Part shown: positions 7,232 to 41,556 of the stretch, one piece after another
How the letters are laid out: every line of letters starts with the position of its first letter
Numbering within the stretch: position 1 is the stretch's first letter
From: Candidatus Methanomethylophilaceae archaeon
Lineage (GTDB): Archaea > Thermoplasmatota > Thermoplasmata > Methanomassiliicoccales > Methanomethylophilaceae
NCBI GenBank assembly: GCA_017507885.1
Contig: JAFVZY010000098.1
Location: 1 to 55,168, forward strand
Reading direction: 5' to 3'
Length of the DNA: 55,168 bases
Notes under the pieces: generated by a model
What the model was told of the DNA's origin: nothing
Database searches by the model: none
What the model saw: only the letters and a program-made list of their open reading frames with translations
Translations under genes and position numbers: made by a program

Positions 7232-10200
7232 TCAGGACCTGAGCATCCTGAAGATGACGACGACACCGATGACGATGATCGCTGCGGTGATGATGATCAG
7301 CAGGATCTCGATGAGGGTGAGTCCTTCGTCTCCGCCCTCGCCGCCGGTGGCGGTGGAGGCGTCGTAGGTGAGGGAGATCTTGATGTCGATCTGCTGGAGG
7401 TTCTCGGTGTTCTCGGGCAGAACGAAATCGAAGTTGTCACGGAGGTTTCCGTTGACGTACATCTCGACGGATCCGGTGTAACCGTTGACGAGGTTGTACT
7501 TCACGGAGTAGCTGGTCTTGTTGGCGTCGTAGGACATGTTGGAGTCCATGAAGAACACGTTTCCGGACTTGGAAAGGGGAATGTTCTCGATGTAGACTCC
7601 ACCGATGGCGGGATCTGCGACGACGGTGACGGCGTAGATGTCGTACCTGATGTTCTGGTAGACGTTCTCGACGGCTCCGATGATCTCGTTCTCGATGATC
7701 TGTCCGGGGAAGGTGGCGGTGAGCCTCCATCCGTCGACGTATGCGTAGGCATCGGTTCCCTCAACGACCTTGTTGATGGCGATGACCTTGCTGTCCTCGA
7801 CGTATGCGGTGAACCACTCGACTCCTCTGTAGTAGGAGTCGACCATGTAGAAGGTGGTGGATTTCTCGTCTGCGACTCCGGTTCCGATGGTGGATCCGGC
7901 GGAGGCGTATGCGACTCCTGCGGTGTCGAGGTAGACGTTGTTTCCGACGGTTCCGGTGCTCTGGGCTCCCTTTCCGTTCTGGAAGATGTCTTCGACGTCG
8001 ATACCGACGACGAGCTCGTCGACGACGACGTTGGCGGCGGTTCCGGTTGCGAGTGCTCCTCCGTTGGTGATGTCGGCGTGTCCGAGGACGAGGACATCGT
8101 TGGCGATGAGCTTTCCACCGTCGATGGAGGTGGTCTCCTCGATGATGGAGGTGTATCCGGCGAGTCCGTTGATGGTGAGCTCTCCGGCGAGGTCGAGGTT
8201 GACGGTGTTGAAGATCTTGCTGACGACCATCGCTTTGGCTGCGATGTCGACGGATTTGGTGGCCTCGATGAAGCACACGGTGATCTTTCCATCGACGTCG
8301 AGGGTCTCGGTGTAGATTCCGGAGTGGTATCCCTCGAAGTCGACAAGGGTTGCGGTTCCTGCAACGGCGACATCCTTTGCGACGATGGCGGATCCGTTGT
8401 AGACTCCGGCGACGGAAACGGTTCCGAACTCGCCGGTGGTGTTCTCGATGACGGTCTGGATGAGGTCCTCGATGACCTGACGGTTGATCTCGTTGATGAC
8501 GATGTTCTCATCGGTGACGTCGACGACGACGTTGTCGACTGCGATGATTGCGATTCCGTCGACGGTTCCGGGGATGACGACGTCTCCTCCGATGATGACG
8601 TAGCTGTCGACATCGCCTGCGAGGTTGATGTTTCCTCCCTCGACGGTGAAGACGGTCATCTCATCGTTGACATCGAAGTTTCCTGCAGCCATGACGTAGG
8701 TCTCGGCCTTTGCACCCTCGGCGACGGTGATGTTTCCGCCCTCGGTGTTTCCATCGATGGGGACGAGGGTGGCGACGATGGCCTGGGTCTCGACGGTTCC
8801 GGTGATGTCGACGTTGTTTCCGCAGATGGCTGCGGGGATCTTGAGGGCGCTGATCGCGTTGTAGACGTTGTAGACGACCGCCTGGACCTCGGGGTCGAGC
8901 TGTGCGACCATGTTGTCGATGACGGTCTGTCCGACGACTCCTGCGACGAAGTCCTTGATCTCCTTGACGGTGGGGACGTAGTCGCGGATTGCGACGTCTC
9001 CGTCGATTGCGACGTTTCCGAGTGCACCGATCATGATGGCGGTGACGTCTCCGTCGATGGTGACGTCTCCGGCTGCTGCGAGTCCGAGGAAGTCTGCGGT
9101 TCCGTCGATTGCGACGTCTCCGTTGACTCCGGCGACTGCGAGGTAGGCCTTTGCACCCTCGGCGACGGTGAGGTTGTGCTTCTCCTCGATGTCCTCGCAT
9201 GCGAGTCCGAGGAAGATGTTGCTGTCTGCGGTTCCGAGGGTTCCGTTGACGACGACGTCTCCGTCGACGGTCACGAGGGCGACCTTTCCGGCGAGATCGG
9301 AGACGAAGTCGATGGAGGTTCCTGCGGGAACGGTGAGATCGGAGGAGATCAGGAACATGGGGCTCTTGACCTCGAGTTTGGCTCCGTCCTTGATGTAGAA
9401 GTTGACGGGTGCGTCGTAGTATCCGACCTGGGTTCCGATGATTCCGAGGTTTCCGCCGAAGGATGCGGAGGACTCCTCGTTTGCATCGTCCTTGACGATG
9501 TTTCCGACGAGACTGACGAGTCCGCCGTCACAGACGAAGACGAGTGCCTGGGATTCTGCGGGCTTGGCGTTGACGAGGGTGACGTCTCCGGTGACAGGGG
9601 TTGCACCGCTGATGGTTCCGATGACGGTTGCGTCGACTCCGGCCATGAAGGTGATCATGTCGGTGGTCTTGATGGTTCCGACGTCGACGTTCTTCATGAA
9701 GACTGCCTTGTTCTTTCCGAAGTCGATGCCATCTCCTCCGGAGAGGACTGCGTCGTTGAAGACGATGGTCTTGTCGTTCTCGAACACGAGGTCCTTGGGG
9801 ACTTCGGTCTGTCCGTAGACCGCGACATCGCTGGTGGCGTCTCCGATTCCGGCCTCGAGTCCGAGGATGGAGGTGATGACGTCTGCATCGGCGGTGCTGT
9901 ACCATGCGCCCTGGGGCTGGTTGGTTCCTGCGGCGTTCAGTTCGATGTTGTCGAATGTGTCCATCATGATGTAGGGGAGGGCATCCGTGGTTGAGGTGTC
10001 ATCCTTTGCGATCATGACTCCCTTCTCTCCGAGGTCGACGATGCTGTCGGCCTTCTTTCCGTCGAGGGTTCCCATGACGGTGATGGTGACGGTCTTGGTC
10101 GCTGCGGGGGAGACGGTGATGTCGTAGCCGTCCATGACGAGGGTGACCTTCTCGGGGATGAGGAGGTCGTCGGTCAGAACGACGTCCTTGCGGAGGGTGA

Positions 10201-11674
10201 CGGTCTCTCCTCCCTCGACCTCTCCAAGGGCCTTGTTGAGGTTGGTGTAGGTGAGGGTGTCTCCATCCTTGAGTGCGATGTCGCTGGTGACGTCTGCATC
10301 GAGGAGTTCAGTGCTGTCGTTGACATCCTCGACGATGATGGTTCCGTTGACGATGACATCGGTTCCGGCGGAGTTGATGTTTCCTCCGACACCGGCTCCT
10401 GCGGTTCCGGCGGCGTCCTCGTCTGCCTTGATGGTGACGGTGACGTCCTTGGCGACGGTGAGGCTGTCCGCCTCGGAGATGTCGAGGGTGACATCGTCGG
10501 GGATCACGAGGTCCTCGTTGATGACGACGTCTCCGTAGACCTTGATGACGGACCCCTCTGCGGGGTTCTGGAGTGCCTTCTCGACGGTGACGTAGTAGTT
10601 GTAGTTCGCATCGGCGTAGGTGACTCCGTTGAAGTCGAGTCCGACGTTGGGTGCGGATTTGGTGTTGATGGTCAGGGGCTGGTTCACATACGTGGTGATG
10701 ATGGAATCCATGCCGGTGACGGTGAGTGCACCGGTTCCCTTGATCATGGGGACTCCGTTGTCATCCTTTGCATCGAGTGCTCCGTTGACCTTGAGTTCTG
10801 CATCGTACTCGATGTTGATGATGACCTTCTTGGTGACCATGTCGTCGATCTGTGCGACTCCCTTGACGATGGAGAATGCGGCCTCCGCATTCTCATCGGA
10901 CATGATGGGGGTTCCGCTGATGACGGCGCTGTCGTCGTGGGTGATCTCGAGTCCCTTGAGGTTCTTGAGATAGACCTGGTTTCCATCGGCATCGGTGATG
11001 GAGACCTCTCCGGCGGCATCGATGATGTGGACCTTTGCGGTGTCGTTCATCTTGAACACGGCGTTGAGGCCGGTTTTGGTGGTGTTGACGGTTGCTTCTC
11101 CTCCGGTGAGGATGATGGTACCAGCGACGGTTCCGTTAACGTTGACTATGTTGGTCACGGTGACGGTTCCGTTGTATATTGCGGACCCATCTTTGTTGAT
11201 GTTAAGGATTCCGGGCACATTCAAGGTTGCTCCGTTCTTAACTTCCATGGAGTCTGCTCCATTGACGGTGAGGGTTCCGTTAACGGTCATAGTGGAGCCG
11301 TCGTTCATGGTGAGGGCGTTGGTTCCCTCGGTGACGATGGCTCCTTTGATATCGACCGCTGCTCCGCTGTTGACTGTGAACTCAGAGTTCTGCTTGAGAG
11401 TTACAGTGACTCCCTCGTTCACAGTAAGGGTGTTGGTGTCGTTGAGTCTGATGAATGTGCCGTTTTCAAGAACCAGGTCCTGGTTGACCACGAATTTCTG
11501 GTTCTGTAATCCGGTAATTCCGGAAATAAGAGTTCCTCCGATGTAGAGGGTTTCCTCATCCTCTGCATCGTAGGAATCGGACATTCCGATAACTCCCACT
11601 GCACCAACGACCATGGCCAGGGCCAGGACGGTTGCAAGAATCTGCTTCTTGCTTGTGAGTGCTTTCATTTTCAT
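7232..11674 (-). CDS. Very large secreted adhesin-like protein with C-terminal membrane anchor
   Basis: About 1480 residues. The N-terminus is a signal peptide or anchor (KQILATVLALAMVVGAVGVIG) followed by a mature domain of Asn/Thr/Val/Gly-rich short repeats (TMTVNGTLTVNGA and VAIDGDV types) that predict a right-handed beta-helix or stacked beta-solenoid. The C-terminus has one membrane segment (IEILLIIITAAIIVIGVVVIF) and a short basic tail, so the bulk faces outside. It probably mediates attachment or forms part of the cell surface, as adhesin-like proteins do in gut methanogens. Several ATGs compete (11668, 11674, 11683, 11695); GGAG at the 11690s best serves 11674, though its spacing is long. 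The composition is low-complexity, so long overlapping antisense frames are artefacts. Confidence 0.82.
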   Translation of the reverse strand: MKMKALTSKKQILATVLALAMVVGAVGVIGMSDSYDAEDEETLYIGGTLISGITGLQNQKFVVNQDLVLENGTFIRLNDTNTLTVNEGVTVTLKQNSEFTVNSGAAVDIKGAIVTEGTNALTMNDGSTMTVNGTLTVNGADSMEVKNGATLNVPGILNINKDGSAIYNGTVTVTNIVNVNGTVAGTIILTGGEATVNTTKTGLNAVFKMNDTAKVHIIDAAGEVSITDADGNQVYLKNLKGLEITHDDSAVISGTPIMSDENAEAAFSIVKGVAQIDDMVTKKVIINIEYDAELKVNGALDAKDDNGVPMIKGTGALTVTGMDSIITTYVNQPLTINTKSAPNVGLDFNGVTYADANYNYYVTVEKALQNPAEGSVIKVYGDVVINEDLVIPDDVTLDISEADSLTVAKDVTVTIKADEDAAGTAGAGVGGNINSAGTDVIVNGTIIVEDVNDSTELLDADVTSDIALKDGDTLTYTNLNKALGEVEGGETVTLRKDVVLTDDLLIPEKVTLVMDGYDITVSPAATKTVTITVMGTLDGKKADSIVDLGEKGVMIAKDDTSTTDALPYIMMDTFDNIELNAAGTNQPQGAWYSTADADVITSILGLEAGIGDATSDVAVYGQTEVPKDLVFENDKTIVFNDAVLSGGDGIDFGKNKAVFMKNVDVGTIKTTDMITFMAGVDATVIGTISGATPVTGDVTLVNAKPAESQALVFVCDGGLVSLVGNIVKDDANEESSASFGGNLGIIGTQVGYYDAPVNFYIKDGAKLEVKSPMFLISSDLTVPAGTSIDFVSDLAGKVALVTVDGDVVVNGTLGTADSNIFLGLACEDIEEKHNLTVAEGAKAYLAVAGVNGDVAIDGTADFLGLAAAGDVTIDGDVTAIMIGALGNVAIDGDVAIRDYVPTVKEIKDFVAGVVGQTVIDNMVAQLDPEVQAVVYNVYNAISALKIPAAICGNNVDITGTVETQAIVATLVPIDGNTEGGNITVAEGAKAETYVMAAGNFDVNDEMTVFTVEGGNINLAGDVDSYVIIGGDVVIPGTVDGIAIIAVDNVVVDVTDENIVINEINRQVIEDLIQTVIENTTGEFGTVSVAGVYNGSAIVAKDVAVAGTATLVDFEGYHSGIYTETLDVDGKITVCFIEATKSVDIAAKAMVVSKIFNTVNLDLAGELTINGLAGYTSIIEETTSIDGGKLIANDVLVLGHADITNGGALATGTAANVVVDELVVGIDVEDIFQNGKGAQSTGTVGNNVYLDTAGVAYASAGSTIGTGVADEKSTTFYMVDSYYRGVEWFTAYVEDSKVIAINKVVEGTDAYAYVDGWRLTATFPGQIIENEIIGAVENVYQNIRYDIYAVTVVADPAIGGVYIENIPLSKSGNVFFMDSNMSYDANKTSYSVKYNLVNGYTGSVEMYVNGNLRDNFDFVLPENTENLQQIDIKISLTYDASTATGGEGGDEGLTLIEILLIIITAAIIVIGVVVIFRMLRS

Positions 11675-11875
11675 TTCTAACATCTGCTCCTTCATCCCTT
11701 TCGGGATTGAATCCGGCGCAGGTGCCGCAGAAGACAGCGACAACGGGACGTGGAACATCCCGTCTTTGAATCCCATCCTCTGACGGCCTTCCCGGCACGG
11801 ACGATGGCATCCATGCGGGGCGTGGCCTGCGTCAGCGGAGGGGTATAGGCCTTCCCTATATAATATAATACTCGC
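11675..11875 (-). promoter_or_regulatory. Promoter and long structured 5' leader of the large surface-protein gene
   Basis: On the minus strand a TATA-rich element (TATTATATTATATAGGG, about 11853-11869) is followed by roughly 165-170 nt before the likely start codon. This is unusual in a window where most genes look leaderless. The leader holds a hairpin with stem ACGGGA/TCCCGT and several GC-rich segments. I see no match to a known riboswitch. Confidence 0.5.
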
Positions 11876-20211: not shown

Positions 20212-22836
20212 TCACTCGGATCCGTTGCCGAGTCTCTTCAGGAACGCGGGTCCCTTCCAGTTGAGGTCGCCCAGGAGGTGCATGACCGCGGGCACGATGT
20301 AGGTACGGACGATCAGCGCATCGACCAGGATGGCGAAGCATAGTGCGAATCCGAACTCCTGCATCATCAGCATGGACGAGAGCATCAGGGTTCCGAACGC
20401 CCCTCCCATGATGAGTCCGCAGACGGTGATGACCGAACCGCTGTGGGTGACGGCGTGGAAGATGGCGTCGTCGTTGCTCATGCCCTTGTGGACGTTCTCC
20501 TTGATCCTGGTGGTGAGCAGGATGTCGTAGTCCATGCCCAGTCCGAGGCAGATGACCAGCAGGATGAGCGGAATCATCCACATGACCTCCGCACCCAGGA
20601 CGCTGCCGAACAGGACGTGGGTGATGGCCAGGGTCCATGCGATGCTCATCAGGATGGTGAGCACGGACCTGACGGGGATGGTGTACGACTTCATGACCAG
20701 GAACAGCAGGATCATGATCAGGATGACCACGAGGACCTCGATGTGGGTGAACTCCTCGCCCACGGCCTTGGAGATGTCGTACATGATGGCGGGGGTTCCG
20801 GTGGACCACTCGTTGGCTATGATGCCGGAGTGTGCGGACACGTAGTCATCCACGATTCCATCGACGGTGTCGATGGTTCCCATGGACAGCGGGGACATGG
20901 CGGCATCCTTGGTGGAGTAGTTGATCTTCAGGAACGTGACGTCCCCGGATCCGTCCGCGGACTGGACGAAGGGGCCTCCGACTATTCCGGCCATGACGTT
21001 GACGTTGTAATCTATGACGTTTCCGGTGTCCAGTATGAACGTGTCGACCATGCTCGGGGTCATCATGGGGTACAGGCCCTCTATGGTCGTACGCATGGTG
21101 GTCACGACCCCTTCGATGTAGGGTTCGATGACGGGTGAGGATCCGGCAATGATGGCATCGATGATGGCGGTCGCGTTGGTCGCACGATCCACGGGGGTGG
21201 CGATGGAGAGGTTCATGTCCGCGGCCGTCTCCGCGACGACCTCGTCCCATACGAAGGGTCCCACGACCTCGGCGATGTTGGAGTCCTGATGTATCTCGGC
21301 GTACAGTTGGTCCAAATCCATCTGGGCCAGCTTCTCGCTCCATTCCAGCGTCGTTATGGTGCCCATTCCCATGACGTTGTCGACGGTTATCGTGGCGACG
21401 GGTGCGGAGGTCTCGAACAGGATGTAGTTGGGCATCATCAGGCCCTGGTAGGCGTACTCGCCGATCAGGTCCATTCCCTCTCCGGAGTCCCCGTTCTGCA
21501 TGGCACCGACCATGTCGTAGGACGTCTCGGCCTCCATGAGTACGTAGACGCAGGGAACGGTGGCGATCACCGCGGCGATGACTATGGCCTTGGCGTGCTT
21601 GATAGAGAACTTCGCGGAACTCTCGAAGTACCTCTTCCCGACCCTTCCGCACCAGGCGAACCATCCGCGGGTTGCCTTTCCACCCTCCTGGAACGCGTCC
21701 ATGCGGGTGGGCCAGAAGATCCTGTCGCCGACGAGCTCGATGATGGCGGGGATGAGGGTGAGTGCCGCGAGCAGGGCCACGAGGATTCCCAGTGCGAGTC
21801 AGATACCCATGGTGGAGATGAAGCTGATGGAACAGATGCACATGGTTCCGAATCCGATCATGACCGCGAGTCCGGAGATGCTGATGGATTCGCCGGCCCA
21901 CTTGATGGCCTCGTGGAGCGCATCGTGATGGCTCTTGCCGGCACGGAGCTCCTCCCTGTAACGTGCGATGATGAAGATGCAGTAGTCGCAACCGGCACCC
22001 ATCATGGCCACCAGCAGCAGCATCTCGGTGATGAAGAAGATCTCCAGGAACTGTCCGAGTCCGAAGATCAGGGCCATGACCACCACGAACGCGGCCCCGA
22101 TGGTGACCGGGGGTGCGCCGGAGGACACGAAGGACCTGAAGAACAGTCCGACGAGGATGAGGATCAGCAGGACGGTGAACGGGTCGATCTTGGAGATGTC
22201 CTCCATGGCGCCCGCGGCTGTGTCGTGGCTGATGGCGGGGGATCCGGTGACGTACGCACCGACGTCGGAGACGACGGGGTCGACGGCGGCGTAGGCCTCC
22301 TTCTGTTCGGATATGAACTCCCTGATGGAGGGGGTGTCGTTCTGGATGAAGACGTCCACCTTCTCCTCGCCCTGTGTGGCGGTGAGGTACTCGGAGTTGT
22401 ACACGACCCCCACGAGGAGGATTCCGATGTTCTCCACGTCCTCGCCCTGGCATCCCATGGACATGAAATAGGGCGGGTCGGAGGCGGGTCCGTTTCCGAG
22501 CAGCGGTTTGCCGTCGGAGTCGACGTATTCCGTACCGTGTGCGTTCAGCCAACCGGCGAATCCCTCGGCGGCGGCCTTTTCGGCGGGCGTGGTGTAGTGG
22601 AGCACCAGGATCGGCACCGCGGCGACGTCCGTGGACGAACCGGGGAAGTGCTCCTCGATCACCAACATGCCCTGCATGGATTCGCTGTCATCGCTGCCCA
22701 TGTCGTTCATGTCGTAGTTCATGACCTCCCCGGCCTTCAGGGCCAGGGGGGCGGAGCATAGCAGGATGACCGCCCATACGACGACGATGAGCTTCGCGTG
22801 TCTTATGATGGAATCCGCGAGCTTGTCGAATATCAT
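20212..22836 (-). pseudogene. RND/MMPL-family exporter interrupted by one in-frame TGA
   Basis: An HAE3-like exporter of about 873 residues with 12 predicted membrane segments in two homologous halves, each having the family motif (GAGCDYCIFIIARYREEL and GLGMDYDILLTTRIKEN). The frame from ATG 22836 stops at TGA 21799-21801, right after FISTMGI, and continues in the same frame as LALGILVALLAALTLIPAI, which is precisely the sequence expected next in the family. A single change from GGA (Gly) to TGA would explain it. No frameshift is present. It is either a recent nonsense mutation, a sequencing error or a read-through site; separate translation of the halves is less likely because the break falls inside a membrane bundle. 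The gene start is set by a TATA about 27 nt upstream. Confidence 0.85.
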
Positions 22837-22956
22837 GAGGTGGGGAATCAAGGCATTTTATTTAAAACAGTATAAAACAGCAACGGGTGTCCCGGGAGGT
22901 CCCCCGTCGTTGTGCGGCTCCCTGGGGGAGGGCGGGACGTTTTTCATCAGATTACA

Positions 22957-22969
22957 TTTTTATATTACA
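22957..22969 (+). promoter_or_regulatory. TATA promoter of RNA unit A
   Basis: TTTTTATATTACA at 22957-22969 fits an archaeal TATA box. Transcription would start near 22985-22990. A nearly identical element precedes unit B. Confidence 0.6.
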
Positions 22970-22987
22970 TTAATTATGTACTGCACG

Positions 22988-23150
22988 GAGGTCGACGCCC
23001 TTTCGGGGGTCATGGTTTCACGTCACCCGTCAATCACGGGCGAAGTATATCGTCAGTATCCAAATCCTAGACCATAGACGATCACCTCCTGCGGGGATCC
23101 GACGTGTCAAAAGTCGTGGCGCGACTCGACGCGTCGAATCTCCGTTTTTT
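22988..23150 (+). ncRNA. Structured RNA candidate, unit A
   Basis: About 163 nt from the predicted start to a T6 run at 23145-23150. Elements in order: a weak hairpin around GAC-GCCC/GGGG-GTC (22993-23010); hairpin CCCGT-CAATC-ACGGG (23026-23040); an unpaired-looking ATCACCTCCT (23081-23090), identical to the conserved 3' end of 16S rRNA and so able to pair with Shine-Dalgarno sequences; and a terminal hairpin CGACGTGTC (23100-23108) with GACGCGTCG (23128-23136) plus an inner stem AGTCG/CGACT. The terminal hairpin followed by T6 works as a terminator on this strand. The stem contains a T-G pair where unit B has T-A, so RNA pairing is preserved on the plus strand. Confidence 0.6.
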
Positions 23151-23172
23151 CTTTGGTTTCTCTGACGGATAA

Positions 23173-23184
23173 TTTTATATTACA
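23173..23184 (+). promoter_or_regulatory. TATA promoter of RNA unit B
   Basis: TTTTATATTACA at 23173-23184, matching the promoter of unit A. The predicted start is near 23200-23210. Confidence 0.6.
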
Positions 23185-23203
23185 CTTATGAGATGTTGGA
23201 AAC

Positions 23204-23395
23204 AGAGGTGAGATGTAACGGCCCTCTCACGAGAGCCGGACCCTTCGAAGAGGGTCATGGTTTCGCATTCACCCGTCAATCACGGGCGAAATAGATTGTC
23301 AGGATCCACAGTTTCAGGATGAAGACCATAGACGATCACCTCCTGCAGGGATCCGACGTGTCAAAAGTCGTGGCGCGACTCGACACGTCGGGCCT
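23204..23395 (+). ncRNA. Structured RNA candidate, unit B
   Basis: A second copy of the unit, about 190 nt. It has an additional 5' hairpin (CTCT-CACG-AGAG within GGC...GCC, about 23219-23237), then GACCCT-TCGAAG-AGGGTC (23238-23255), CCCGT-CAATC-ACGGG (23272-23286), ATCACCTCCT (23335-23344), and a terminal 10-bp stem CCGACGTGTC/GACACGTCGG (23353-23362, 23382-23391) with the same inner stem as unit A. The last roughly 65 nt are nearly identical between the copies while the 5' parts diverge yet keep hairpins. The T-run after the last hairpin is weak here. Confidence 0.6.
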
Positions 23396-23493
23396 CTGCC
23401 TTTGACATTCGTGCATACTCCAGTTTGTATAATAATCTTTTTTACACACGCTGGTAATAAACAATATTAACAGCGTAGTTACAATAAAATTGA

Positions 23494-25143
23494 TTGGATA
23501 TCATCGTATCGGACCGGTTTTGCATCTCGGGTCGGTACGGTAAAGTACTCTCGGATGGTTTCGGTGGCATGGATGGGACCGTATTGCAGCACATCGTCAC
23601 GGGGAGGGATTCCCCTGCACCCGTGCTGTACGAGGTCGACGGTTCCTTCGTCACCTTCATGAACCTGTTCTCGGTGGATTCCTGGAGGAGGTACACCGTC
23701 GTGTCCGACGTGTCCGTGGAGGTCGTCACCGACGGTCCGGCCACGGTCAGGCTGGTACGTCCGTCGGGGGAGGTTCTGGATTCGGTCGAATCCGACGGCG
23801 TCGCGGTCATGCCCGTCGTCACGGACCACGGCATGGTGGGTGTGGAGGTGGACGGGACGTTCGTGTCCGGGTGCTTCTACACGTCCGCCGATCCGGTGCG
23901 TACGTGCAGGATGGCCCTCAACGTCTGCACCCACGACAGGGTCCCGTACGTGGAACGCAAGGTGGCGGACTTCCTGCGCTTCTCACGGGACGCGTGCTTC
24001 GACGCGGACATGTTCGTGGTGGACAACCACGGGAACCTTCCGGATCTGCCGGTGCGCGTCATCCGCAACGGGAACCTCGGCGGGAGCGGAGGGTTCGCCC
24101 GGGGGCTGTACGAGATCCGTAGGGAGGGCGGATACACGCACATGGTTTTCATGGACGACGACACCGTCCTGGATTTCGAATCGGTGCACAGGATGTGGGC
24201 GCTCTGCTCCTTCCTGAGGGATGAGAACGCGGGATGCATGGTGGGCGGTGCGATGCTCCGTTCCGATATGCCCACCGTGGTCCACGAGAAGGGGGTGTCC
24301 ATCGGGATGGAACGCTACGGCGGCAACCTGGACGTCTCCACCCCCGGGGGGTGTGCGGAGTTCGATTCGCAGGACCCCGCGGTGGCGAACGGGTGGTGGC
24401 TGTGCTGCACCCCGTTCCTGGGCGAGGACGACTACCCCGCACCGTTCTTCACCGGGTACGACGACCTGGAGTACGGTCTGAGGCACGGCTCCGCCGTGAT
24501 CCATCTGAACGGGGTGTCCGTGTGGCACGATTCCTTCGAGACCAAGTACGATCCGCGCAGACTGTACTACTACGACGTCAGGAACTACCTGGCCATGCGC
24601 GCCATGGGCGGCAACCTGGATGCGGGTCTGATGTGGGACGTGTACCGTCACTGCGTGGTGGAGGCGCTTTGCATGAGGACGGTCAACGCCGGACTGGTCC
24701 TGAGGGCCCTGGGGGATTTCATGTCCATGGGGTTCCTGGAGACCGATCAGGAGGGGTTGCATGCCCGGTTGCCGGTCGTGGTCGATTGCGGATGCGACGC
24801 GCCCCTCGGCGTCGAGTCCCGGAGGCCCCGCCTTTTGACCGTCCTGACCCTGAACGGGATGCTGCTGCCGTCCAGGGGTGCGGTCATCGCCCCGGCCAGG
24901 ACCAGGTCCGTGTCGTATTCCTACAGGGCGTCCCGTGTGATACACTACGATGCGGGCAGCGGGAGGAGGTTCGCCCAGGACCGCGACCTTCCCGGGACGT
25001 TGCGCATACTGTTCGGGATGACCTTCGGGACCGTCCGCTGCATCCTTTCACGCAGGGGGTTGTGCCGTCGTTACTCTCTGGTCTCGGACAGGGTGCATTC
25101 CGAGGGTTTCTGGAGGGACAGGTTCCGATCAGGGACACTTTGA
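23494..25143 (+). CDS. GlfT2-like galactofuranosyltransferase (GT2 family)
   Basis: Adds galactofuranose from UDP-Galf to a growing surface glycan, probably on the cytoplasmic face of the membrane. 549 residues: an N-terminal beta-sandwich (FVTFMNLFSVDSWRRYT resembles the GlfT2 Tyr/Phe-Asn-Ser-Phe...Trp block), a GT-A core with NGNLGGSGGFARGL and the metal-binding MDDDTVLD near residue 220, the acceptor-side VWHDSFETKYD, and a C-terminal helical part. The start is TTG 23494, supported by homology to the full N-terminal domain and by an ATATTA element about 28 nt upstream. UDP-galactopyranose mutase and GalE, which would supply its donor, are at 36.7-38.8 kb. Confidence 0.85.
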   Translation: MDIIVSDRFCISGRYGKVLSDGFGGMDGTVLQHIVTGRDSPAPVLYEVDGSFVTFMNLFSVDSWRRYTVVSDVSVEVVTDGPATVRLVRPSGEVLDSVESDGVAVMPVVTDHGMVGVEVDGTFVSGCFYTSADPVRTCRMALNVCTHDRVPYVERKVADFLRFSRDACFDADMFVVDNHGNLPDLPVRVIRNGNLGGSGGFARGLYEIRREGGYTHMVFMDDDTVLDFESVHRMWALCSFLRDENAGCMVGGAMLRSDMPTVVHEKGVSIGMERYGGNLDVSTPGGCAEFDSQDPAVANGWWLCCTPFLGEDDYPAPFFTGYDDLEYGLRHGSAVIHLNGVSVWHDSFETKYDPRRLYYYDVRNYLAMRAMGGNLDAGLMWDVYRHCVVEALCMRTVNAGLVLRALGDFMSMGFLETDQEGLHARLPVVVDCGCDAPLGVESRRPRLLTVLTLNGMLLPSRGAVIAPARTRSVSYSYRASRVIHYDAGSGRRFAQDRDLPGTLRILFGMTFGTVRCILSRRGLCRRYSLVSDRVHSEGFWRDRFRSGTL

Positions 25144-25965: not shown

Positions 25966-27327
25966 TCAAAGATACATCCTCACCATGTGTGTCGAATTGT
26001 ATTTCGGGAACATGGTGCATACCGTGTCGATTCTTTCGATGTAATCCCTTGTCTGTTTACGGTCCAGGTCCAGCTCCCTTATGCGTATGTCCCGTATGCG
26101 TTGTATCACTATGTGTTCAATGACGTCTTCATTGCACAGTGAATCGAATAATACATCCGTATCATTGGATGAATCGTATGATTCCATTAATTTTTGATAT
26201 GTTTTAATTGCTTTCTGTGTTTTCAGATTGTTCGACATCAATTCACGTAGACTATGTATGTCCGCATGACGTCTCATGCATGAATTGTATAGACTCAGTA
26301 GTTTCTCATCGGACCATTGGATGTCCGATGAGATCATGCGTTTGACCGATTGTATGAACGAGGTGCCATCCAACGTCTCCGCGAATTGAATCAGCATATG
26401 GAATGCGTTGTCGGACAGGTTCCCGTTCGGCGATTCCCTCAACAGTCCGTATAGTTTCTCCAACACGCCTGGTGATCCCCCGTTCTTCGATATCTCATGG
26501 GCATACAGCATCAATTCCATCGAATTGCCGGATTCCTCTGTATGATTCCCGCATGTCGATGACAGGACGGCATCCGACATCCCCTTGTTCCTCAATTCCC
26601 CGAATATCTCCAAGGCACGGTCCAGGTCCCTGTCCACCCCTATGCCCGTCGCATGGAGGATTCCTAGACAATACAGGACGTCGCTCCTGTCCGATCCGAG
26701 CAGCACATCCGATAGTCTGTGGTCCAAATCGCTTTCCGGTAACGTCAACACCCTCCATAGTATGTTCCTCACGGGGGTTTGGTCTGATCCCATGCGCATC
26801 GACATCTCCACTTCATGCAGGTATTGCAACGTCCTTCTCGATTCGGACATCCGGTCATCCATATGTTGGATGCCCGTCGTGTCGCATTTCGACGCACAGG
26901 CGAACACGGGATCCCACCCCAGTTCGATGTCCCTCAGCCCCTCTATTCCTGATGAACGGCGTTGACATATTTCGAGTTCATATCCGTCGATGCGACCATA
27001 ACGGTCCCTGCGACCCGTTTCTTGGATGGCTCCTATGCTGTCCTCCGCGGAGCGGGCCTTGCATATCATATCGTTCTTCAACAGGGTGTTCTCCCTGCAT
27101 CTGCCCTTCCTCGATCTCACATGGACCATGAACATCAGCTCCTTGGCGGTCCTGTCCATGATGTACGCGATCTCCCTGGAGTCCGCATGGGTCGGATCGT
27201 CCCTGTACCTCCCCCACATCCCGTCCATGCGGGACGTCAGTTCCCTCTGCAGGTCCCACAGCTCCTCCCTGGACGTGTTCCCGTCGAGGGACGACATGCA
27301 TCCGGTCGAATCAAAGGGTCCTGTCAT
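25966..27327 (-). CDS. Hypothetical protein with a single Sel1-like repeat
   Basis: 453 residues that I do not recognise as a whole. The only recognisable element is one Sel1-like unit, VLYCLGILHATGIGVDRDLDRALEIFGELRNKGMSDAV, in the middle; the rest is helix-rich with many charged residues and no membrane segment. The last two thirds are more AT-rich than the first. Start ATG 27327 has GGTGACC about five bases upstream and overlaps the end of the preceding gene by 17 bp, so the two are translationally coupled. It is the third gene of the minus-strand block at 25.97-29.62 kb. Possible role: protein-protein scaffold. Confidence 0.65.
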   Translation of the reverse strand: MTGPFDSTGCMSSLDGNTSREELWDLQRELTSRMDGMWGRYRDDPTHADSREIAYIMDRTAKELMFMVHVRSRKGRCRENTLLKNDMICKARSAEDSIGAIQETGRRDRYGRIDGYELEICQRRSSGIEGLRDIELGWDPVFACASKCDTTGIQHMDDRMSESRRTLQYLHEVEMSMRMGSDQTPVRNILWRVLTLPESDLDHRLSDVLLGSDRSDVLYCLGILHATGIGVDRDLDRALEIFGELRNKGMSDAVLSSTCGNHTEESGNSMELMLYAHEISKNGGSPGVLEKLYGLLRESPNGNLSDNAFHMLIQFAETLDGTSFIQSVKRMISSDIQWSDEKLLSLYNSCMRRHADIHSLRELMSNNLKTQKAIKTYQKLMESYDSSNDTDVLFDSLCNEDVIEHIVIQRIRDIRIRELDLDRKQTRDYIERIDTVCTMFPKYNSTHMVRMYL

Positions 27328-28483
27328 TTCCGGTCACCTCCGTCCTTTCCAAATCGTATTCGAGACATTCGGACACGGGTACGTCCAAACCCTTTCCAGA
27401 ACAGGCATCCATCGTGAGCCTCAGGGAGGTCATGCGCACGGATTCGTCCACCACGTCCGTGGTCCCGTACAGTCTGAACCTTTCCATGAGGACTGGCTTG
27501 TTCCCGATGTGGTGCGTCTCCACCGTTCCGAACTCCTTCAGGATCCTGGCCACCACGTCCGGGGACACCCTGTCGCCGATCACCACGCGGCATCTCCTCT
27601 CCGAAGCGAGGATGAACCTCTTGGCGAAATCCATGTCGTGATGGAGGGTGTCGATGACCTCCAGGGTCATGTGGGCGGAATCGAAATCCCCCGTGCGGAG
27701 GATCGTGGTCCCGAAATTGCATTCCGCCGTGGTTCTGCCCTTCATCCCGTCCATGGAACCGAATACGACCAGGTCGTGTTCCTCCCTGTTCGGGACTGAC
27801 GGTATGTTGCACAGGTTCTCCACGGATTCCATCGTGAACACGAGTCTCAGACGGTCGTCTGCAGGTTCGGGGGTGCATGCATCCACGAGACTGTTCAACA
27901 TGATGGCGTCGATCCTGTACCGCGCATCGGCGTAGCTTCCTCCGGCCGTGCAGGCATTCGCGCAGATCTCCCTTCCGCCCTTGAACTCCATCAGGTCGTT
28001 GATGTGCTTCTGGGCCATCCTGCCTTTCTCGAGATCCACCCTGTTGCTGTTCAGATATCTGAATACGTCCATGTCCCCCATGCCGAACGCATTCCCTGCG
28101 ATGTTCCGGATCTCCTCGGATTCACGGATGCAGAACACACCCTCCCTCCTGCTCATCAGGATGTCGATTAGGGGCGACCATGCGCTTTCGGAACTCGCCT
28201 CCCCCTTGATGTGGGACACGATGTCGTGTGCGATGCCCTCCATGACGGTGTCCAGGTCCTTGTGGATGGGACCGTGATGCCTGACATACATCCTCTTGGA
28301 GAGCTCCACCATCTTCCTGGAGGGGGCGTTGGAGTCCAGACGCCCCAGCGTGCCGGGTTTGATGTTGTTGTCGCGACACATCCTGTTGAAGTAGCAATTG
28401 GATGCCACGAAGCCCAGGAGTCCTCTGAATTCGATGTCGTCGGTGTCTTCGATGCCTTCCAACCAGATTCTGAACCTATCCAT
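27311..28483 (-). CDS. Hypothetical protein, middle gene of the three-gene block
   Basis: 390 residues of unknown family; soluble, no signal peptide. The N-terminal 190 residues are helical with Cys residues (NACTAGGSYADAR). The C-terminal half alternates strand and helix (DLVVFGSMDGMKGRTT, CRVVIGDRVSPDVVARIL, VLMERFRLYG), suggesting an alpha/beta domain, but no catalytic motif is clear. It has GGGTGG before the ATG and a possible TATA near 28540 on the minus strand, so it may be transcribed separately from the first gene. It overlaps the following gene. Confidence 0.65.
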   Translation of the reverse strand: MDRFRIWLEGIEDTDDIEFRGLLGFVASNCYFNRMCRDNNIKPGTLGRLDSNAPSRKMVELSKRMYVRHHGPIHKDLDTVMEGIAHDIVSHIKGEASSESAWSPLIDILMSRREGVFCIRESEEIRNIAGNAFGMGDMDVFRYLNSNRVDLEKGRMAQKHINDLMEFKGGREICANACTAGGSYADARYRIDAIMLNSLVDACTPEPADDRLRLVFTMESVENLCNIPSVPNREEHDLVVFGSMDGMKGRTTAECNFGTTILRTGDFDSAHMTLEVIDTLHHDMDFAKRFILASERRCRVVIGDRVSPDVVARILKEFGTVETHHIGNKPVLMERFRLYGTTDVVDESVRMTSLRLTMDACSGKGLDVPVSECLEYDLERTEVTGNDRTL

Positions 28484-28588
28484 GTTCCCACCCTGTATCC
28501 CCGCATCCCGTGGATGCGGAGATATGGCTAGTCGCTGATGGTATAAAAGCGTCTGATGTTTTTCCGTGTGAAAAAACGCAAACGGACG

Positions 28589-29617
28589 TCATTCTACGTG
28601 TTTGTTCACTATGGATGACACTATCTGTATGAACTGCTCCATGTCGTCGAAGTCCACGTTCATCGGCCCCTCGGCATCGTCCACGAACCTGTACACCGGC
28701 GACATCCCCTCGGCCGTCAGTTCGTCGATGACCTTCATGGCGATGTCGAAGGTGTTGTGGGAGGTCATGCCGAAGATCACCACGGCACCGGAGCGGAACA
28801 GGTCGCGAACGAACTCCTCGGTGACCCTGACGTTGCCGAAGTAGTCTAGGTCGAACAGACCCTTCCTAAGACCCTGTCTGATGTACGGGGGTTCGCGGAT
28901 GGAGTCGAGCAGCGGCACGTGTCCCAGGACCGCCACCCTGTTGCCGGAGTGCTTCTGGTCCCTGTTTCCGAACGGGATGAACACGTCCGTTCTGATCTTG
29001 GGTTTCACGACCGCGTAGACGTCCGGTTCGTCGTCGAACCCGTAGTCCACCTTCCTGATCCAGTTGTACGCGTTTGCGATGGCCTCCTCCATGCGCATGG
29101 ACGGTTGCGGATAGAGCATCTCGGAAAGGTACCTGTTCAGGGTCTTCCTGGAATACTCCTTGGTGAAGGGGACGTCCACCGGCGAGAACCTGGTGACGAT
29201 GGATGTGAACGTGGCCGGGGTGTCCGTGGGTTCGGTGCGGAGGCTTCCCGATTCGTCCATGTACCACTGCCTGCCCTCTGAATCCAGTATGCCCATGAAC
29301 CGGTGAGTGTCGTCCAGGCCGCCATTGCGGGCGTCCATGATCCTCTCGTGGACCATCATGATGTCCTTGGGCATGTCGATCCCGGACCATCCGTTGTAGA
29401 ATCCGCGTTTCACGCCCTCGCAGAACTCCCTGAAGTCCCTGGAGTTGTTGTTGGACGTGGCTTTCCTGTTGTTGGCCACCAGCATGAGTCTGAGCATCTC
29501 GAATGCGCCCTTCTCCCTCTCGGCCTCGGTGCGGTCCAGGGGGAATACGGATGACAGGATGAGGACGTACTCGAACTTCATGGTCCTGAGTGCGCTCCTT
29601 CTGAGTGGTCGTTCCAT
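28589..29617 (-). CDS. Hypothetical protein, first gene of the three-gene block
   Basis: 342 residues with no family I can name. Around residues 225-300 there is an alpha/beta stretch (NRVAVLGHVPLLDSI, SGAVVIFGMTSHNTFDIAMKVIDEL, MSPVYRFVDD) that looks like a nucleotide- or sugar-binding Rossmann-type fold, preceded by a helical N-terminus rich in Asn/Arg (NNRKATSNNNSRDFREF). TATA (AAATTATATTAAATC) sits about 25 nt upstream of the ATG, consistent with leaderless transcription. A palindromic candidate operator lies 58-82 bp upstream. The gene is divergent from a PP2C phosphatase across 612 bp. Confidence 0.68.
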   Translation of the reverse strand: MERPLRRSALRTMKFEYVLILSSVFPLDRTEAEREKGAFEMLRLMLVANNRKATSNNNSRDFREFCEGVKRGFYNGWSGIDMPKDIMMVHERIMDARNGGLDDTHRFMGILDSEGRQWYMDESGSLRTEPTDTPATFTSIVTRFSPVDVPFTKEYSRKTLNRYLSEMLYPQPSMRMEEAIANAYNWIRKVDYGFDDEPDVYAVVKPKIRTDVFIPFGNRDQKHSGNRVAVLGHVPLLDSIREPPYIRQGLRKGLFDLDYFGNVRVTEEFVRDLFRSGAVVIFGMTSHNTFDIAMKVIDELTAEGMSPVYRFVDDAEGPMNVDFDDMEQFIQIVSSIVNKHVE

Positions 29618-33413: not shown

Positions 33414-33722
33414 ATGCGTAAGATGTCTTTGAATACGGCGATGTTCGTGTATTGGGTGTTGTGGGTGCTGGTGTTTTCCGTGGTCATGTGTTCGTTGTAC
33501 TACGGTTTCGTAGGCCATCCGTACCACAAATGGATCATACTCATCCCAGCGATCATCATGACGTTGTCCATCCTGGTCGTGGGTCATTGGGTCATCGAAA
33601 GGTACGGGTGGGAGCCGTTCGATCATTCGTCCAAATCCCGAAGGGGACGGTGGCGAGGTCTGGACGTACAAATCCTCGCATCCGACCTGGGAAAACCACT
33701 TATAAAAACCGTTCCTATGTGA
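33414..33722 (+). CDS. Small two-helix membrane protein, copy 2 with extended tail
   Basis: 102 residues. The first 80 match copy 1 closely (same MRKMSLNTAMFVY start, GHPYHKWIIL, VIERYGWEPFD); about 23 extra residues follow (LDVQILASDLGKPLIK), read through sequence that also holds the TATA box of the next gene. The start is fixed by GGAGGTGA five bases upstream. Tandem duplication with copy 1 is also evident at DNA level over the first roughly 40 coding bases. Confidence 0.7.
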   Translation: MRKMSLNTAMFVYWVLWVLVFSVVMCSLYYGFVGHPYHKWIILIPAIIMTLSILVVGHWVIERYGWEPFDHSSKSRRGRWRGLDVQILASDLGKPLIKTVPM

Positions 33723-33733
33723 ACACGATTCCA

Positions 33734-36661
33734 ATGGTATCTGACGACATCTTCTTCAACATCATGGGCAGCCGGCTGTGCGACGAGATAGTGGGTTTCA
33801 GACAGGGCATATCGATGCATCCGCGTGCGGCGGTCCGTTTCACGGAACCGCTCGTCCTGTCGGAGGACGAGAAGTCCCGTCTCCTTTCGGACAGGGCCCA
33901 TTGGCTGATCATGGACACCGTCTGCATGGCACCCACCGACAGTTCCCCCGAACCCCTGTCGAGGATGGACGAGCTGGTGTCCTTCGTGAAGGAGAATTGG
34001 GGGACCAACGTGATAGTGGTGAACCCCCGTCCGTGCAGGTACCGTCTTGAAGACGGCATAGTGTTCGCCCTGTCCGATTTCGAGGGTTCCAGTCCGGGTT
34101 TCCCCGAGGGTTCCCGTCTCGCGTTGGAGTTGGCCCGCAGGTTGAGGTGCCAGATCCTGAACGTCCCCTTCGAACCCGTCTCCAGGGACGGGGGCAGGTT
34201 CTCCTACGTTCCGCACGTCCTGGGGTATCTGAAGGAGATGACGGACATGTCCGTGACCCGCTGGGACCGCAGGAGGGCGGACATGCTGGCGGTTCAGGCT
34301 CAGATGGAGTCCGACCTGATGGTATCCGACAACGTGATGGACCGTCTGACGTTGAAGTCCATCTACGACGAGAGGATGTCCGAGAGGAGGTACGAGTCCG
34401 TGCCCGAGGTGTGCGAGCTCCTGGCGGAGCTCGGCGACGCCGACGGCATGGGGTGGATGGCCAGGTTGTACAGGGAGGGTCACGGCGTTCCCCCCAACCC
34501 GGGGATGGCCATGGAATGGTACGTCAGGGCGTCCGAGACGGACCTGGGATGGACCACGGAGTATCTGGAGTACCTGTGGACGATGGATTCGGATTTCGCC
34601 AGGGACAGGATGCTGGAGTGCGCCTCCGCATGCTCCCGCAGGGGCCACGGTGGTTCCGCACTGATATTGGCGAGGGCCTGCAGGGACGGAAACGGACTCC
34701 CGCAGGACGGGAGGAAGGCCGTCGCGTGGTACAGGAAGGCGATGGAGCGTGGCGAGAGGGTCGCGGCGGGAGAACTGTATGATTTGATGATGTCGCTGGG
34801 GGGCCGTTACGTACAGAACGCCGGTGTGATGATCGAGAGGCAGGCTGTCCTCGGGAACCCGCATGCGATGGTCAGGATGGCCCGTGCCTCCGACGATATC
34901 GCGGACAGGTTGAAGTGGCTCAAGAGGGCGTGCGCAGAGGACGGGTCCTTCTGTGCGGAGTATGCGGACCTGCTGTGGATGCAGAGGAGGCCGGAGCACG
35001 ATGCGGAACTGGTGAGGGTGCTCACCGGTGCGGGATCCCCCGAGGCCATGTGCCGTCTCGGAAGGGCGTACAGGGACGGTCGCGGCGTCAAGGCGGATCT
35101 GAACGAGGCCGCAAGGCTCATTAGGCCCGCCGTCGGTTCGGTACCGTGGGCCGCTCCGGAGCTTTTCGACATCCTGTGGAGGATAAACACCCCCGAGTCC
35201 AAGGGGGAAATGGTCGCACTCTGCGGAAGGTTCCCGGAGGACCATGCGATGCTGGGGCGCATGGGTCGTGCCCACAGGGACGCTCGCGGTGTGCCGAAGG
35301 ACCTCGTGAAATCCGCAGAATATTTCAGGAATGCGTATTCCTGGAACCAGGTGTGGGGCAACGAGCTGTTCGATGTGCTCTGGTGGATAAACACCCCCGA
35401 GTCGAAGACGGAGATGATGAACGTCATACAACCGTTGGTGGATCGTGGTGACGGTTCCGCATTGGGAAGGATGGGTCGTGCGTACCGCGACGGTCGCGGT
35501 GTGAATCAGGATCTGAACCTCGCGGCGGAATGGATGAGGAAGTCCGCTGGCAGGAACGTCGGTTGGGCCAAGAACGAACTGTTCGACATCCTCTGGAGGA
35601 TCAACACCCCCGAGTCCAAGGAGGAGATGATCAAAGTGGCATCTGATTTCGCTGCTAAGGGCGACGGCAACGCCATGGGGAGGATGGGTCGTGCGTACCG
35701 CGACGGTCGCGGTGTGAACCAGGACCTTGGTATCGCCGCGGATTGGATGCGCAAGGCGATCAGTAGGAACGTCTGGTGGGCACATCACGAGCTGTTCGAT
35801 ATCCTCTGGAGGATCAACACCCCCGAATCGGTCAAGGAGATGATCGACAGGGCGCAGCAACAGGCCGATGCCGGCAACCAGGAGATGATGGGGCGCATGG
35901 GTCGTGCGTATCGCGACGGTCGCGGTGTGCCGAAGGACCTCGTAAAATCCGCCGAGTGGTTCAGGAAGGCCCTTCCGAAGAACATCTGGTGGACGAACGA
36001 GTTCTTCGATGTGCTCTGGGCGATCAACACTCCCGAATCCCTGAAGGAGATGATGAATGTAATCAAACCCCTCGTGGACCGCGGTGACGGTAACGCCATG
36101 GGAAGGATGGGGCGCGCCCATCGTGACGGGCGCGGCGTCGGGCAGGACCTGAACAAGGCCGCCGAATGGATGAGGAAGTCCGCGGAGAAGAACGTCGGCT
36201 GGGCGAAGATCGAGTTGTTCGACACCCTCTGGAGGATCAACACCCCGCAGACCGATGAGGAGATGATCAGGGTGGCGTCGGATTTCGCCGCCAAGGGTGA
36301 TCCCAACGCCATGGGAAGGATGGGTCGCGCCCATCGCGACGGGCGCGGTGTGCCCAGGGACCTCGTGAAATCAGCGGAATGGTTCAGAAAGGCCCTTCCG
36401 AAGAACATCTGGTTCACCAATGAGCTCTTCGACGTGCTTTGGGCGATCGAAACCCCCGAAACGGATGCGGAGATGCTGAGGATCGTGAAACCGATGGTGG
36501 ATCGTGGGGATCACGGTGCCATGGGCAGATTCGCCCGCATGCACCGTGACGGCAGGGGTGTGGAAAGGAACCTGGACCTTGCCAGGGAATGGTTCATACG
36601 CGCCGTCGATAAGAACAAGGTGTGGGAGAAGGAGTTGACGGCGTTGCCGCCGTCGGAGTGA
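33734..36661 (+). CDS. Large Sel1-like repeat protein with unassigned N-terminal domain
   Basis: 975 residues. Residues 1 to about 225 form an alpha/beta domain (FFNIMGSRLCDEIVGFRQG, HWLIMDTVCMA, NVIVVNPRPCRYRL, ILNVPFEPVSRDGG) vaguely resembling SGNH-like DUF6270 proteins, which I hold only tentatively. From about 235 on there are Sel1-like (TPR-related) repeats, first diverged, then six or more nearly identical 70-71-residue units, each with GRMGRAYRDGRGV and ELFDILWRINTPES. Sel1 arrays are protein-binding solenoids. ATG 33734 is chosen because TTATAAAAA near 33700 gives a leaderless start. No signal peptide is seen. Confidence 0.82.
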   Translation: MVSDDIFFNIMGSRLCDEIVGFRQGISMHPRAAVRFTEPLVLSEDEKSRLLSDRAHWLIMDTVCMAPTDSSPEPLSRMDELVSFVKENWGTNVIVVNPRPCRYRLEDGIVFALSDFEGSSPGFPEGSRLALELARRLRCQILNVPFEPVSRDGGRFSYVPHVLGYLKEMTDMSVTRWDRRRADMLAVQAQMESDLMVSDNVMDRLTLKSIYDERMSERRYESVPEVCELLAELGDADGMGWMARLYREGHGVPPNPGMAMEWYVRASETDLGWTTEYLEYLWTMDSDFARDRMLECASACSRRGHGGSALILARACRDGNGLPQDGRKAVAWYRKAMERGERVAAGELYDLMMSLGGRYVQNAGVMIERQAVLGNPHAMVRMARASDDIADRLKWLKRACAEDGSFCAEYADLLWMQRRPEHDAELVRVLTGAGSPEAMCRLGRAYRDGRGVKADLNEAARLIRPAVGSVPWAAPELFDILWRINTPESKGEMVALCGRFPEDHAMLGRMGRAHRDARGVPKDLVKSAEYFRNAYSWNQVWGNELFDVLWWINTPESKTEMMNVIQPLVDRGDGSALGRMGRAYRDGRGVNQDLNLAAEWMRKSAGRNVGWAKNELFDILWRINTPESKEEMIKVASDFAAKGDGNAMGRMGRAYRDGRGVNQDLGIAADWMRKAISRNVWWAHHELFDILWRINTPESVKEMIDRAQQQADAGNQEMMGRMGRAYRDGRGVPKDLVKSAEWFRKALPKNIWWTNEFFDVLWAINTPESLKEMMNVIKPLVDRGDGNAMGRMGRAHRDGRGVGQDLNKAAEWMRKSAEKNVGWAKIELFDTLWRINTPQTDEEMIRVASDFAAKGDPNAMGRMGRAHRDGRGVPRDLVKSAEWFRKALPKNIWFTNELFDVLWAIETPETDAEMLRIVKPMVDRGDHGAMGRFARMHRDGRGVERNLDLAREWFIRAVDKNKVWEKELTALPPSE
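35040..36600 (+). repeat. Tandem 210-213-bp DNA repeats encoding Sel1 double units
   Basis: The marker atgggtc/atggggc followed by the RAxRDGRG codons recurs at 35471, 35684, 35897 and 36107, i.e. every 213, 213 and 210 bp, with high nucleotide similarity. Such arrays can expand or contract by recombination. Confidence 0.75.
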
Positions 36662-41428: not shown

Positions 41429-41521
41429 GTTACCACTCATCGGATTCCGGAGCCGGTGTACCACGGATGGAATCGATGTGTTCGCAGTGGCCGATGTTGC
41501 TTATAAACGGGGAGAAAGGTT

Positions 41522-41548
41522 CCACGGGGATGATGTAACTCCCCGTGG
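41522..41548 (-). terminator. Hairpin terminator of the 1139-aa surface protein gene
   Basis: A perfect 8-bp stem CCACGGGG (41522-41529) and CCCCGTGG (41541-41548) with an 11-nt loop, 9 bp beyond the stop on the minus strand and ahead of the next gene's promoter. Confidence 0.6.
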
Positions 41549-41556
41549 GTTTGGAT

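Follow-up and report, generated by a model that had tools for sequence, protein, structure and literature searches.

The window, i.e., the whole stretch of 55,168 nucleotides analysed here, belongs to a 1.64-Mb genome in 135 contigs, and the presence of methyl-coenzyme M reductase (PF02249, E 6.4e-63) identifies the organism as a methanogenic archaeon. Two related sequence units, A (22957-23150) and B (23172-23405), lie in tandem in a 642-base intergenic stretch between a minus-strand gene for an MMPL-type transporter and a plus-strand glycosyltransferase-like gene, the latter assigned on weak Pfam matches below the cut-off. The transporter gene, whose ATG is at 22836 on the minus strand, has a TATA-like site, TTTAAATA, starting 30 nt upstream of this codon. 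One TGA in frame, at 21799-21801, interrupts the transporter frame (20212-22851), and most MMPL relatives have one open frame of approximately 830-1080 amino acids; the interrupted gene is possibly a pseudogene, a case of recoding or an assembly error. Elsewhere on the minus strand of the window, three proteins in a row, 453, 390 and 342 amino acids long (25966-29617), and a 1514-amino-acid frame (7232-11776) had no Pfam match, and neighbouring proteins of 863 and 1139 amino acids with Listeria-Bacteroides repeat domains (Flg_new; 38873-44976) are probably surface proteins. The plus strand encodes a 1069-amino-acid protein whose sequence has six Sel1 stretches and matches the TPR-S sensor domain (33452-36661) and a 488-amino-acid protein matching a Double-GTPase 2 domain (E 3e-9; 45044-46510).

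The features of the two units are collected in Table 1. Units A and B are 85% identical across the 139 columns of their matching part, and their 5' parts were not aligned by MAFFT at the 5' arms of the long-range stem. A TATA-like element, TTTTATATTACA, heads both units in identical form, and each unit holds a CCCGT-CAATC-ACGGG hairpin, one copy of the 10-mer ATCACCTCCT carrying an anti-Shine-Dalgarno (anti-SD) block, and a long 3' hairpin that is directly followed by T6 in unit A only. These elements had been noted in the preliminary description and all were recovered, including a terminal-stem pair that is T-G in one copy and T-A in the other. The 10-mer occurs once more in the window, at 53602 on the minus strand. 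The organism's own 16S rRNA gene is missing from this assembly, and the 10-mer is a putative match to the 16S 3' end of this organism.

Table 1. Features of the two tandem units (positions in the window).
Feature	Position	Strand	Remark
TATA-like element, unit A	22957-22966	+	about 28-30 nt before the closing-stem 5' arm
Predicted structured RNA, unit A (putative antisense RNA)	22987-23150	+	fold z -3.9
5' arm GGAGGT, unit A	22987-22992	+	pairs with ACCTCC 23084-23089 (long-range stem)
CCCGT-CAATC-ACGGG hairpin, unit A	23026-23040	+	
Micropeptide ORF remnant, unit A	23030-23068	-	RIWILTIYFARD-stop, not in the frame of the ATG
ATG GTC TAG, unit A	23067-23075	-	start, one codon, stop (M-V-stop)
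SD AGGAGGTGATC, unit A	23080-23090	-	other strand of the anti-SD
10-mer, unit A	23081-23090	+	
3' hairpin, unit A	23091-23145	+	then T6, 23145-23150
TATA-like element, unit B	23172-23181	+	about 30 nt before the closing stem
Predicted structured RNA, unit B (putative antisense RNA)	23204-23405	+	fold z -4.3
5' arm GAGGTGA, unit B	23205-23211	+	pairs with TCACCTC 23336-23342 (long-range stem)
CCCGT-CAATC-ACGGG hairpin, unit B	23272-23286	+	
17-codon hydrophobic micropeptide ORF, unit B	23276-23329	-	MVFILKLWILTIYFARD; positions include the stop
SD AGGAGGTGATC, unit B	23334-23344	-	4 nt before the ATG
10-mer, unit B	23335-23344	+	
3' hairpin, unit B	23345-23399	+	nearest later T6, 23438-23443
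Candidate BRE/TATA, unit B minus-strand mRNA	23428-23435	-	TTATTATA, preceded by AAAAAAGA; about 30 nt before the 5' hairpin

The anti-SD block and the hairpin are among the best-conserved segments between the units, which, like the identical promoter-like heads and the T6 after unit A, is consistent with the reading first given to this locus, that of a plus-strand family of trans-acting small RNAs whose exposed anti-SD either imitates the 16S tail or base-pairs with ribosome-binding sites on other mRNAs. None of 200 dinucleotide shuffles folded as well as either unit, and, also in favour of this reading, the 3' hairpin forms 23 of its 24 pairs on the plus strand in each copy, in comparison to 20 (A) and 21 (B) of 24 on the complement, with 7 G-U versus 2 A-C cells. 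One pair differs between the copies in a fully compensatory way (G-C in A, A-T in B), besides other, one-sided changes. Over whole units the complement folds slightly better (-74.2 versus -68.9 and -93.3 versus -87.6 kcal/mol), so that folding energy cannot decide the strand. Against this reading, the anti-SD did not prove to be exposed: in partition-function folds of the full-length units the unpaired probability of CCTCC was 0.0 in A and approximately 0.1 in B, because CCTCC closes the molecule with GGAGGT (A) or GAGGTGA (B) of the 5' arm. When the 5' arm was omitted from the fold, CCTCC opened in B and stayed shut in A. The full-length predicted folds therefore lack the accessible anti-SD that a trans-acting anti-SD RNA or a 16S-tail mimic requires.

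The opposite strand, which had been overlooked in the preliminary description, accounts for the same letters. In both copies the complement of the 10-mer reads AGGAGGTGATCGTCTATG, i.e., AGGAGGTGATC-GTCT-ATG, a perfect SD with a start codon at normal spacing. In copy B this ATG opens the 17-codon hydrophobic ORF, giving the short hydrophobic frame with a ribosome-binding site by which type I toxins are recognised. Copy A retains the SD and the ATG with a broken ORF; eight nucleotides present in unit B are deleted there, which leaves the ATG in the wrong frame. It reads ATG GTC TAG, so that copy A cannot make the peptide, and the tail WILTIYFARD-stop is kept. Reading the TAG of copy A as pyrrolysine was rejected, as the product would be hydrophilic (judged by eye). 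A plus-strand ORF was likewise rejected, since a 1-nt indel puts the two copies in different frames and their differences, read in plus-strand frames, are non-synonymous.

Across 147 genomes of the order, AGGAGGTGATC followed by ATG after 2-8 nt was found at 46 places, 44 of them outside the own genome, and the reversed-pattern control gave 2 matches in all 147 genomes. Among the 44, the 29 that became loci were examined; 14 head frames of at least 90 amino acids and 15 shorter ones, and several of these short-frame loci are presumably due to chance. This excess over the control, together with the 14 of 29 loci that head frames of at least 90 amino acids, indicates that AGGAGGTGATC serves as a ribosome-binding site in the genomes of this order, where single matches can be chance. 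The anti-SD 10-mer is then probably present because it is the complement of a dedicated minus-strand SD, and as one such SD explains the 11-mer, no trans role is needed. It is still likely that the plus strand gives a structured small RNA from a promoter of its own; that this RNA mimics the 16S tail or binds ribosome-binding sites in general appears improbable, given the predicted pairing of the anti-SD core, the SD, correctly spaced ATG and coding-like ORF on the opposite strand, the lack of target specificity that a free 11-nt anti-SD would presumably have, and the lack of any homologue in the searches given below.

TATA-like sites lie approximately 30 nt before the predicted RNA start on both strands. 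The minus-strand sites are weak, the best being the candidate BRE/TATA of unit B. That of unit A, AATATAAA (23181-23174), is merely the complement of the plus-strand site of unit B and could serve a unit A minus-strand transcript. A sigma-70 promoter and terminator scan, whose rules are not suited to archaea, returned three promoter-like and no terminator-like signals, the hairpin and T6 of unit A falling below its rules. Since the plus-strand 3' hairpin out-pairs its complement, both strands carry signal, with structure on the plus strand and SD plus coding sequence on the minus strand.

The ORF was assessed with coding tests that were partly post hoc, being picked once the ORF was noticed, and that compare two copies only. 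Across the 11 unambiguous codons from TGG to the stop (stop included), all four substitutions between A and B were third-position and synonymous (P 0.0042 permuted from B and 0.0074 from A with the frame set by SD and ATG; 0.022-0.028 with any of six frames allowed). In a 13-codon set, which includes a gap-adjacent stretch of less certain alignment, 6 of 8 changes were third-position and the two altered residues were K/R and L/I; P was 0.0046 for residue changes and 0.00025 for the BLOSUM score, and became 0.083 and 0.0014 when the best of the six frames was taken. Codon usage in copy B was positive only in the ORF frame (+3.4 nats; -1.7 to -8.0 in the other five), and the conserved tail of the copy A remnant scored near zero (+0.14). 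Among 4000 random ORFs, 49 had a GRAVY as high as that of the peptide, 1.39, as did 13 of the 530 short ORFs in the window. Together, these sequence comparisons provide significant but modest evidence for a peptide.

Relatives of the module were sought at several levels. A covariance model of the RNA (E <=1) and a peptide pattern with up to two mismatches each found 1 of the 147 order genomes, its own, and a DNA search of a phylum sample found its own genome and none of 388 others (1 of 389). The preliminary description had named a lack of homologues with compensatory changes as grounds for refutation; no homologue was found outside the two copies, to which the support by covariation is thus confined. 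Rfam gave no family at the gathering score anywhere in the window, and at E <=5 across 22800-23500 its sole match was cow-rumen-1, not credible at 14.4 bits against a gathering score of 53.4. A tRNA/tmRNA scan, pattern scans of viral contigs and a phage search had no matches, and a plasmid search gave two weak ones only, of 28-33 bases. Matches to unit B DNA (E <=1) occurred in 105 of the 147 order genomes and are presumably coding or chance matches; among the matches listed, those besides the two copies were shorter than 50 bases, had E 4e-4 or worse and often lay at query positions 145-164. Exact CCCGTCAATCACGGGCGAA had three matches in bacterial metagenome-assembled genomes of the contig collection, set aside as chance because their flanks were dissimilar. 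At genus level, SD-led ORFs opening with four NTN codons were found at seven other places in 31 genomes, none of similar layout as judged by ORF length and sequence. Upstream of MMPL genes, two GGAGGTG sites were present at the own locus only among 30 loci, 27 of which had the full 610 bases, and all 26 other full-length regions hold an open frame of at least 100 codons.

Because neither the order and phylum genomes nor these upstream regions held the module apart from its own, it looks like a species-level insertion, although a fast-evolving RNA could be missed, as the closest MMPL relatives are only approximately 60% identical. With no homologue in any searched collection, the arguments from selection and covariation are drawn from two sequences. 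The species-specific repeats and their absence upstream of MMPL relatives would also suit a palindrome-rich intergenic insert that was duplicated in tandem and is now decaying, with neither strand functional any longer and the anti-SD and ORF partly chance, and the broken ORF of copy A beside a transporter gene itself broken by an in-frame stop fits such decay. We regard it as unlikely in view of the conserved blocks against diverged spacers, the compensatory pair, the fold z-scores and the synonymous pattern.

A cis-antisense RNA that covers the ORF of a hydrophobic micropeptide is the simplest model to use the signals of both strands, and we put at about one half the probability that the locus is a tandem-duplicated cis-antisense micropeptide module working like a type I toxin-antitoxin locus of Sib/Ibs layout. 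The repeats, the SD and ATG in both copies and the coding-like substitution pattern are seen directly in the DNA; the folds are predictions. In this model, the minus strand of copy B would yield a short mRNA that has, besides a stable 5' hairpin, the perfect SD and the ORF of the 17-residue hydrophobic peptide. The plus strand would yield a structured RNA overlapping this mRNA in full, whose pairing with it across SD and ORF would block translation. When the predicted minus-strand RNA of either copy is folded, its SD is for the most part paired, and trimming 20-60 bases off the 3' end partly freed that of B, whereas that of A opened after 60; in the mRNA the SD is predicted to be closed by a complementary stretch of the 3' region, which would be a second lock like those of type I toxin mRNAs. 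Copy A lost its ORF through the deletion and may now be either in decay or a spare source of antisense RNA. By their position the RNAs of the two strands would be complementary; that either strand is transcribed, that the RNAs form a duplex and that the mRNA is repressed are steps that we infer, as are action on the membrane and toxicity.

The same sequence evidence would serve a micropeptide that is not a toxin and has a regulatory or membrane role, or else an upstream short ORF; the plus-strand RNA would then be a cis regulator comparable to sRNA162 on the short-ORF-bearing MM2442 leader of Methanosarcina mazei, and a methanogen cis-antisense RNA over short ORFs has been described (PMC3510493). 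We consider this alternative rather unlikely, since tandem duplication and a strongly hydrophobic 17-residue product suit type I toxins better, and the upstream-ORF version is further opposed by the transporter gene's own TATA-like site, which probably leaves the ORF outside any MMPL leader.

Returning to the type I reading, a more specific proposal, which we offer tentatively and hold to be short of probable, is that of an archaeal type I-like module independent of the bacterial families, in which a tandem, fully overlapping antisense RNA is combined with a 17-residue membrane peptide and a doubly sequestered ribosome-binding site. Going by title and abstract, no archaeal type I system was recognised in the open-licence literature, where we also found no paper on anti-SD small RNAs in methanogens and, by title, nothing on topic for small RNAs in Methanomassiliicoccales. 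According to a 2025 paper, which itself adds a cyanobacterium, type I systems had been known in Proteobacteria, Firmicutes and Tenericutes alone (PMC12390103). If the reading is true, this methanogen would show that toxic micropeptides under antisense control are not confined to bacteria. A general trap is also illustrated, namely that an apparent anti-SD small RNA can be the reverse side of a Shine-Dalgarno sequence.

Among known systems, Sib/Ibs of E. coli has an approximately 140-nt repeat in five copies whose antisense RNA spans the whole ORF and the ribosome-binding site (PMC4147584), and IbsC is a 19-amino-acid hydrophobic peptide reducible to 15 residues with at least 10 hydrophobic ones (PMC4147584, PMC8309996). 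The present locus shares the multi-copy repeat and the very short hydrophobic ORF, and its putative antisense RNA would likewise overlap ORF and ribosome-binding site; it differs in its archaeal TATA-type signals, its longer unit (approximately 165-200 nt) and the lack of the ORF in one of two copies. Frame-shifted ibsC reportedly keeps its toxicity (PMC7192591), which does not rescue copy A, since it stops after two codons. No sequence relation was seen in a comparison via Rfam only, which is relevant if Sib is modelled there; as no Rfam model matches and as toxicity and transcription are what we infer, the locus is not assigned to the Sib/Ibs family and the likeness is one of layout. In AapA1/IsoA1 of H. 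pylori, as is proposed here, an antisense RNA encoded in cis covers the gene of a short membrane peptide (PMC8309996), and in ZorO/OrzO of E. coli O157:H7 the loci are likewise duplicated in tandem and, as is predicted here, mRNA structure sequesters the ribosome-binding site (PMC8309996, PMC3919570); these systems, likened by layout and not by sequence, differ in being bacterial and in having peptides of 29-30 amino acids. M. mazei sRNA162 differs as a single locus with partial 5' overlap and additional action in trans, not proposed as a toxin-antitoxin system, and resembles the RNA proposed here as a methanogen small RNA that lies opposite a short-ORF leader and pairs over the ribosome-binding site (PMC3510493).
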